57,460 nucleotides of DNA from Pseudomonadota bacterium (GTDB lineage: Bacteria > Pseudomonadota > Gammaproteobacteria > Nitrosococcales > Methylophagaceae), in NCBI GenBank assembly GCA_030576275.1, contig JALIBN010000026.1, positions 122,765 through 180,224 of the forward strand, written 5' to 3'. The stretch's first letter is position 1; the number at the start of each line of letters is the position of its first letter. The position numbers were made by a program, and so were the translations under genes. Below are positions 4,038 to 6,217 of the stretch, piece after piece. The notes beneath the pieces are model-generated. The model did not search any database. It saw nothing but the letters and a program-made list of their open reading frames with translations, and had not been told where the DNA came from.

Positions 4038-5813
4038 TTATAGCCAGAACTTCGAACGCGACATTAACTGTGAAAACCAGTCGTGTGTCGTTTTTTCTCC
4101 ATACAAAATATAGTCTAGGGCGTACTTGTTTAATAGGGTCCACTCCATTTTATAACGAGAAGTAAAGCGTCCGCAGAGCAGTAATCTATCGTTTATCTGT
4201 AATGGCATGGCATCATTAGGGAGCAGTGTAAGTATGCCATTACGTTGTAATAATAATGGCATGGCATCATTAGGGAGCAGTGTAAGTATGCCATTACGTT
4301 GTAATAATAATGGCATGGCAAACAATTGTTCATCACGGTTTTTAGGATTACCTAATATGTGACCAATAGTAACTAACTCATTGGTTGCCAATTTGTTGAA
4401 AACGGCAAGTGCTTCTTCATTATTAATCACTAGCTCCCAGAGTTCGGGTACTTGCTCTTTGACGATTAAGCAGACGCGTTTAACCATTTCACTTGCCCAT
4501 GCGCGAGTTTGTTGACTGGCCAAGCCCATAAATGCGTAAAGTAATGGTGTGGATAATAAACCACCAATTTTATTGGCGATTATCGAACTAGGGTGCATCA
4601 CGATATCGGCTTTAATGGCATCAAATAATCGTTTATTTTCTTCCAGATTATTACGCGCGACCACAAATAAATCTGGATTCATTGCTTTAGCAGTCATAAT
4701 AATAGACAGGTTATTGGCATCATTGTCGGTTCCAGCAATAATACCGACCGCGTCCATGATACCGGCCTTGTCTAGTGTGATTGCTTCAGTACCCCTGCCC
4801 TTTATCCAGTCATCAGTTGAAATTCCTGATTCTGGTAAGCCCGTTATTTCAGGTGACGCTTCGATGATGATGGGGTGAATGGCATTGACTTTGAGTTGTT
4901 GATAGACCGTTTTGCCAAAACGACCATAGCCACAAATAATCCAGCGTCCTTGTTGTGGTGGATAGATGGGGCGATCTAAAGCTTGGTATCGGGCTCCGGT
5001 TAACCATGTATTTAATAGATTTAACGCTGGCGATTGAATTGCTGTGGCTAAATGTATGGCAAAGGTATCAAAGGGATCGATAATGTAATCAGTACCAAAG
5101 GACGACATATTGTCCTCAATCTCGTGTGAATCAGCACGGCAAATTACTTTAAGATTGGGGCTAAGCAGTTTGGAGGTAACTGCAATTTTTAAATTGACAT
5201 CATTGTCATCTGTCACTGCGATGACACCCTGACATAAGGAATGCTCTAATCCCGCTTCAATTAAATGAACTGGCCGTGCGGCATCACCATGTAAGCCAGG
5301 TACAAATTGTCGTAGGTTTTCTAGCTTTAATAGGTTGATAACATCAGGATTAATATCAATCACCACGACATTCTGATTACGTTCAGTAAGCACAACCACT
5401 AAGGCTGATCCGGTTTCACCGTAACCACACACAATATAAAAAGGTTCTCTTAAGCGTTTTATTTTGCGAGAAAATCGAAGTTCTTTTAATGCTTCTTGAA
5501 AGGATTTATCTTGGATAAGGGTGAGTAAGGTACCAATGGCATAAAGCCATACAATAACGGTGGAATAGATAGAAAACATTACCCATAAACGTTGAGCATC
5601 TGTAAACGGATAGGGGATCTCTCCAAAACCAATCGTTGTGGACATATAACCAACAAAATAAAAGGCATGGAAGTAACTCATATACCAGACATTGCCATCA
5701 GCATCTTGTCCAGGAATGAGCGTTAAACCTAAGGCCGTAATTGAAAATACAGTCACTAACGACAGTAAAGGCAGTCGCATGCGGCGGAAAAAGATGAAAA
5801 TGATGTTATTCAT
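4038..5813 (-). CDS. Potassium channel with two RCK (TrkA-N) domains
   Basis: 591 residues. An N-terminal two-helix pore module has the selectivity filter TTIGFGE at about residue 60 (TxGFG variant of TVGYG), followed by two NAD-binding RCK domains starting CGYGETGSAL (~130) and CGYGRFGKTV (~294). This is the layout of prokaryotic Kch/MthK-like channels gated by cytoplasmic ligands. Near the C-terminus an 18-residue block (AMPLLLQRNGILTLLPND) occurs twice in tandem and a third copy begins (AMPLQIND). At DNA level this is a perfect 54-bp direct repeat. It lies in the likely TrkA-C ligand-binding region and does not break the frame. The neighbouring gene upstream (20 bp) is a small membrane protein likely in the same operon. 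Confidence 0.88.
   Translation of the reverse strand: MNNIIFIFFRRMRLPLLSLVTVFSITALGLTLIPGQDADGNVWYMSYFHAFYFVGYMSTTIGFGEIPYPFTDAQRLWVMFSIYSTVIVWLYAIGTLLTLIQDKSFQEALKELRFSRKIKRLREPFYIVCGYGETGSALVVVLTERNQNVVVIDINPDVINLLKLENLRQFVPGLHGDAARPVHLIEAGLEHSLCQGVIAVTDDNDVNLKIAVTSKLLSPNLKVICRADSHEIEDNMSSFGTDYIIDPFDTFAIHLATAIQSPALNLLNTWLTGARYQALDRPIYPPQQGRWIICGYGRFGKTVYQQLKVNAIHPIIIEASPEITGLPESGISTDDWIKGRGTEAITLDKAGIMDAVGIIAGTDNDANNLSIIMTAKAMNPDLFVVARNNLEENKRLFDAIKADIVMHPSSIIANKIGGLLSTPLLYAFMGLASQQTRAWASEMVKRVCLIVKEQVPELWELVINNEEALAVFNKLATNELVTIGHILGNPKNRDEQLFAMPLLLQRNGILTLLPNDAMPLLLQRNGILTLLPNDAMPLQINDRLLLCGRFTSRYKMEWTLLNKYALDYILYGEKTTHDWFSQLMSRSKFWL
4201..4320 (-). repeat. Perfect 54-bp tandem duplication inside the K+ channel gene
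   Basis: Copy 1 is 4201-4254 and copy 2 is 4255-4308, identical base for base. A third partial copy of 12 bp follows at 4309-4320. 54 is divisible by 3, so the repeat adds 18 residues without frameshift. Identity of the two copies implies a recent slippage or unequal recombination event, or an assembly artefact. Confidence 0.97.
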
Positions 5814-5833: not shown

Positions 5834-6217
5834 TTAGCGTCGTAACATCACGGTTTCAATGACTAATAGCACAACGGAAATTACGTTTGCTAATAATGCC
5901 CCACCTGATAAAGACACGATACTGGCCATGACAGTTGGTGTTAATCCGATATCGAAGATATGAACAGCAAATGTCCATACGATAGTTGCCGCAATCAATT
6001 GCAAAACAGCAACTAAACTTGTCGCTAGCAACACCGCCCCCATTTGGGTGCGGTCACCAAATTTCAATATTGTCGCGATTACGTTTACCAAGACCACAGC
6101 AAATAGTTCATAAACATGATGGTGGCTGGGGTTTTCGATATCACCGACAAAAAAACCAAAGTTTAGCGTTAACGCTAAGACGATAAAAAAACCAAATATG
6201 ACTTTTTCTGGATTCAT
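5834..6217 (-). CDS. Small four-helix inner membrane protein, probable partner of the K+ channel
   Basis: 127 residues with about four hydrophobic segments (VIFGFFIVLALTLNFGFFVG; ELFAVVLVNVIATILKFG; AVLLATSLVAVLQLIAATIVW; ASIVSLSGGALLANVISVVL). The pattern NFGFFVGDIENPSHHHVYELFAVVLVN-x-I-A-T-I-L-K is a conserved uncharacterised membrane family (I recall it as DUF6394, not verified) frequently encoded next to ion-channel/RCK genes. It lies 20 bp upstream of the channel gene on the same strand, suggesting co-transcription. Function unknown; a role in K+ flux is inferred from neighbourhood only. Confidence 0.7.
   Translation of the reverse strand: MNPEKVIFGFFIVLALTLNFGFFVGDIENPSHHHVYELFAVVLVNVIATILKFGDRTQMGAVLLATSLVAVLQLIAATIVWTFAVHIFDIGLTPTVMASIVSLSGGALLANVISVVLLVIETVMLRR

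Follow-up and report, generated by a model that had tools for sequence, protein, structure and literature searches.

The window analysed here (the whole 57,460-nucleotide stretch, G000:C26:122765-180224) carries on its minus strand a putative K+ channel gene containing a perfect tandem duplication, with a small gene of the DUF6394 family directly upstream. The features are as follows:

4038-5813, minus strand: dual-RCK two-transmembrane K+ channel gene, 591 aa, GsuK/MthK-like, assigned from Pfam and PDB relatives
4200-4253, minus strand: 54-bp unit (plus-strand reading), the one closer to the gene's 3' end; codes for the larger part of the second 18-residue copy (517-534)
4254-4307, minus strand: 54-bp unit, identical to the previous one; codes for the larger part of the first 18-residue copy (499-516)
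4308-4320, minus strand: start of a third unit, 13 bp, TAATGGCATGGCA on the plus strand; the sister species (L005) has the same 13 bp here
5834-6217, minus strand: gene for a 127-aa DUF6394 protein (PF19931) that looks hydrophobic by eye; on the same strand as the channel gene and 20 bp upstream of it

The product of the channel gene is predicted to be an RCK-gated K+ channel of the two-transmembrane, dual-RCK, GsuK-like type. The two-transmembrane pore is indicated by an Ion_trans_2 match at residues 26-101 (Pfam, E 2.1e-6, 28 bits against a cut-off of 22.5) and by the motif TIGFGE (residues 60-65), which is invariant across 33 sequences and which we take to be the K+ selectivity filter. The tandem RCK domains are indicated by two TrkA_N stretches in the 591-residue channel (Pfam), together with GsuK and TrkA alignments that span both. 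The best PDB match by sequence is GsuK, the multi-ligand gated channel of Geobacter sulfurreducens (PDB 4gx0, 4gx2 and 4gx5), which likewise combines a pore and two tandem RCK domains in one chain but shares about 20% identity with the window's channel. An AlphaFold2 model of the latter (mean pLDDT 86.8, pTM 0.76) has two Rossmann-like strand/helix runs and aligns to chains of GsuK, TrkA, KtrA and MthK, with VIA-align Z scores for GsuK of 22.8 (4gx0, rmsd 6.8, 369 residues) and 19.8 (4gx2, rmsd 9.9, 459 residues). The RCK gating domain of MthK aligns to model ranges such as 122-564 (2aem, Z 18.6, rmsd 3.7, 223 residues), although the MthK gene encodes a single RCK domain, unlike the dual-RCK channel of the window. 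Between 3400 and 6400, neither promoter-like sites (8, against a shuffle mean of 11.2) nor terminator-like sites (2, against 2.2) were enriched.

Tandem Repeats Finder, applied to the window, returned 4200-4320 as an array of period 54 with 2.2 copies, 100% matches, 0% indels and a score of 242, while the remaining nine rows all scored 58 or less. A repeat search resolved its 2.24 perfect copies into the two identical 54-nt units and the 13-nt third start listed above. The unit length is divisible by three, and the minus-strand ORF 4038-5813 is open throughout, with no internal stop; its translation reads AMPLLLQRNGILTLLPND twice and then AMPLQIND, in the context ...EQLF-AMPLLLQRNGILTLLPND-AMPLLLQRNGILTLLPND-AMPLQINDRLLLCG... 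The channel gains 18 residues by the duplication; the duplicated region (residues 499-534) follows the second Rossmann lobe and belongs to the last RCK subdomain. These results uphold the initial annotation, which had described an in-frame duplication adding 18 residues to the C-terminal regulatory region of a K+ channel, on each of those counts: the pore and TrkA_N matches and the solved relatives GsuK and MthK support the channel, the unit length and the uninterrupted ORF the frame, and the position in the last RCK subdomain the regulatory location. The repeat itself was also correctly placed except at its edges, since it starts one base earlier (4200, not 4201) and its overhang is 13 rather than 12 bp.

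Chance was rejected as the origin of the array, as 0.14 occurrences of its 13-mer start (at most one mismatch) are expected per window and three were found, all inside the array. A mobile element or dispersed repeat was rejected as well, the array with its flanks occurring a single time in its own assembly (2.37 Mb, 34 contigs). The array junction had no match in viral_contigs, in a search whose listing may omit the window's own records. At the level of the assembly the repeat is genuine. The searches brought up no second record of the same species, so that its occurrence in the living strain, its copy number and its fixation all depend on this one assembly.

The distribution of the gene was followed in 59 genomes of relatives, 29 of the genus and 369 of the class, the window's own genome being included in each search. 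The channel was found in 93 of the 369 class genomes at E 1e-60, and it is patchy within the genus, where 4 of the 29 genomes reach E 1e-20 and G019 additionally contributes a fragment lying at a contig end. Apart from the window's own, 95 genomes matched strongly (92 in the class search at E 1e-60, plus three from the genus search); the best-matching 32 were aligned, their orthologues being 45-96% identical to the window protein over a global alignment. The extra 18-residue unit is present in none of these 32, the sister species included, which makes the single copy the ancestral state; seven of them carry 1-4 additional residues at a nearby turn. The protein of the sister species is 96-97% identical to that of the window, and the gene as a whole is conserved between the two, with dN 0.018 and dS 0.276 (NG86; dN/dS about 0.065) and differences at 60 of 238 fourfold sites.

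The unduplicated relatives also point to how the array arose. In the sister species the single copy starts with TAATGGCATCGCA, and TAATGGCATGGCA follows 54 bp on, the two being identical at 12 of 13 positions; in a further congener (L006) the exact 9-bp pair TAATGGCAT stands at the same 54-bp spacing. The period of the array is thus the spacing of a direct repeat in genomes with one copy. We consider it very probable that the gene of this gated K+ channel underwent a tandem duplication specific to its lineage, through slipped-strand mispairing (short-homology illegitimate recombination). By encoding AMPL twice within one beta-hairpin region, the ancestral gene would have carried a near-identical pair of 13-bp stretches at a distance of 54 bp, and a nascent strand re-pairing one repeat back would have led to the intervening 54 bp being copied again. 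As 54 is a multiple of three, the frame would have been kept and 18 residues added at the start of the beta-hairpin in the C-terminal subdomain of RCK2. The 13-bp third start is the remnant of the flanking microhomology. The slippage step itself is one that we infer, and it is not separable from other short-homology recombination. What makes the locus a clean example of duplication is that the unduplicated sister retains the direct repeat that probably seeded the window's array, so that both mechanism and artefact can be argued from sequence alone.

For small variable segments of bacterial genes, an excerpt of PMC2884548 proposes replication slippage between repeats shorter than about 30 bp. 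The window's duplication resembles the segments described in that excerpt in being an in-frame 54-bp unit inside a gene, bounded by a 13-bp direct repeat; it differs in that those segments are defined by variation between strains, whereas the duplication is known from one genome. Hairpins promote slippage between short direct repeats according to an excerpt of PMC4134008, which describes this for deletions. The array contains inverted repeats of 9-10 bp, and its single strand folds somewhat better than shuffled sequences (z -2.40, with 5 of 200 shuffles as good); hairpin assistance was nevertheless set aside as weak, as the array itself supplies much of the folding signal. Among the papers listed on tandem duplication in Methylophaga, none concerns this channel gene, judged by their entries.

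The same direct repeat bears on the assembly artefact that the initial annotation had offered as an option, and on a library artefact as well: the strain would then have one copy, doubled by a contig join or by an amplification slip. A join at an arbitrary overlap is not expected to reproduce the spacing of the sister's 12/13 repeat, and a direct repeat at exactly 54 bp, being the expected slipped-strand precursor, argues against a random assembly join. Moreover, the 121-bp array fits within an ordinary read length, the reading frame is retained across it and the window itself contains no N. Assembly errors at repeats are more commonly collapses than expansions. On the other side, N runs (gaps or masking) occur in 7 of the 37 pieces sampled from the window's own genome, so that the assembly may be a scaffolded draft, where repeats are liable to be misbuilt. 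Perfect arrays with a period of at least 30 also number three in 722,265 bases of that genome against none in 999,807 bases of five congeners (about 0.07), an excess that is not significant and that could reflect assembly or biology alike. Taken together, we regard an artefact as distinctly unlikely.

The age of the event can be bounded from the copies and from the sister. The initial annotation had taken identity at every base to imply a very recent event, which is too strong. The unit of the window differs from that of the sister at 4 of 54 sites, and because this divergence is so small, the absence of differences between the copies bounds the age only loosely, to less than about 0.75-0.84 of the time elapsed since the two species separated (simple Poisson clock, 95%). 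Perfect identity is thus weak evidence for extreme youth, and would be further weakened by gene conversion, which could also hold the copies identical. Identical copies therefore need not be of very recent origin, contrary to the initial inference; the absence of the unit from the sister is better dating evidence. Polarising the four differences by the further congener (L006) shows two of them (unit positions 10 and 31) to have arisen in the window lineage; they are present in both copies, so that, by parsimony, these substitutions precede the duplication.

The effect on the protein was considered from AlphaFold2 models. In the two-copy model residues 497-513 have a pLDDT below 50, and the strands 517-524, 527-530 and 543-548, which involve copy 2, match strands 499-506, 509-512 and 525-530 of the sister with a shift of 18. 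Predicted separately, the window and sister proteins hardly differ in their elements outside the insert. The prediction favours a flexible loop on a fold that is otherwise unchanged; the extra copy would accordingly be looped out and nearly neutral. The choice of the looped-out copy is not independent, as copy 1 is gapped in the AlphaFold2 alignment; either copy may form the native strands, and the model cannot tell which. The C-terminal subdomains of GsuK are loosely placed at the periphery of the gating ring, according to an excerpt of PMC3510474. The insertion is probably a tolerated, ordinary change on the strength of the predicted fold, and the duplication matters little biologically unless the extra loop alters gating.

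Two further readings give the duplication a larger effect. One, which shares the origin by slippage, is a loss-of-function allele in which the 18 extra residues misfold the C-terminal subdomain of RCK2 and cripple the channel. The insertion does adjoin a beta-hairpin with invariant or near-invariant residues (P532 and L545; R524, D542 and G548), and most congeners are without the channel, which implies that it is dispensable in the genus. We nonetheless find this reading unlikely: the frame is intact, the second copy appears able to form the native fold in the model, and the low whole-gene dN/dS against the sister speaks for constraint, with the reservation that a very young null would not register in it yet. 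The other is an adaptive, switchable element, in which the copy number of the 54-bp unit changes at a high rate and tunes gating in 18-residue steps. The site lies within a regulatory RCK domain, and perfect in-frame tandem copies are prone to more slippage or deletion. There are, however, two copies only, none of the 32 relatives gained a unit (although seven have the turn residues mentioned above), the predicted fold is the same except for the low-confidence loop, and the peripheral, loose placement of the corresponding GsuK subdomains described in the excerpt of PMC3510474 also speaks against it, so that we hold such an element to be highly improbable. A reversible length switch of the gating ring, by which gain or loss of 18-residue units at the RCK2 C-terminal subdomain of a channel with DUF6394 as its constant neighbour would tune the K+ flux within a population with the frame intact, is just as remote; on this reading the two identical copies would also provide two alternative strand registers.

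The DUF6394 gene is a conserved partner gene that lies outside the duplication. It adjoins the channel at all 34 loci tested (32 distinct) and is 64-98% identical by tblastn; compared with the 45-96% of the channel, a figure taken over global alignments, it looks at least as well conserved. Among the 369 class genomes, 93 have the channel, 92 have DUF6394 and 91 have both, and the two genomes with the channel only (G339 and G356) have partial channel matches. DUF6394 lies upstream of the channel match on the same strand in 92 of 94 matches, with 14-299 bp between match ends; the remaining two are at contig ends with the channel start still readable, which brings adjacency to 94 of 94. It was found in none of 14 control genomes. 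A search of the phylum gave 24 DUF6394 matches outside the class, of which 15 were taken: five have a channel alongside and ten have no channel match, two of these ten stretches ending (contig end) 1.0-1.4 kb past the DUF6394 match. No mention of DUF6394 was found in the literature searched. We propose the protein as a candidate constant partner subunit of the channel, and consider this neighbour more consequential than the duplication, as it represents an unnamed family of small proteins whose role as a partner subunit is testable. The ten outside-class matches with no channel match in the sequence taken (L172, L174-L180, L183 and L185) are all of a divergent branch of DUF6394, about 34-40% identical to the window's protein.

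Such duplications are not unique to the channel locus. Perfect repeats were defined by at least two full copies and a period of 15-200, the smallest period being kept, and were counted in the 37 pieces of the window's own genome (non-N bases, window included) and in the five congeners. The own sample contains four perfect arrays, with periods of 54, 39, 30 and 18, all multiples of three; the seven arrays of the congeners all have period 18 and lie within one repetitive reading frame of G006. A genome-wide excess of tandem duplication, perhaps linked to an altered mutS, was considered and rejected, the three events with a period of at least 30 not being significant. Several other repeats were seen in the same genome. 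The 39-bp repeat (L063:6541-6618, perfect, 2.0 copies) lies in a short ORF of 83 aa that may be no gene. At L064:10032-10096 a repeat listed with period 26 consists by eye of 13-bp units, not a multiple of three, and falls outside the array definition, as do the 6-bp arrays of L062, where a CCAGCT array at 1280-1500 is broken by an N run, the mark of a repeat left open in assembly, variable in length or masked. The mutS gene of this genome (TIGR01070; L062, G000:C26, 16671-19289, plus strand) has a perfect in-frame 30-bp duplication of 2.2 copies at L062:19135-19200, which is absent from the mutS of all five aligned congeners (the search of a sixth yielded no match) and which encodes LAAPSMIAEH near the C-terminus.
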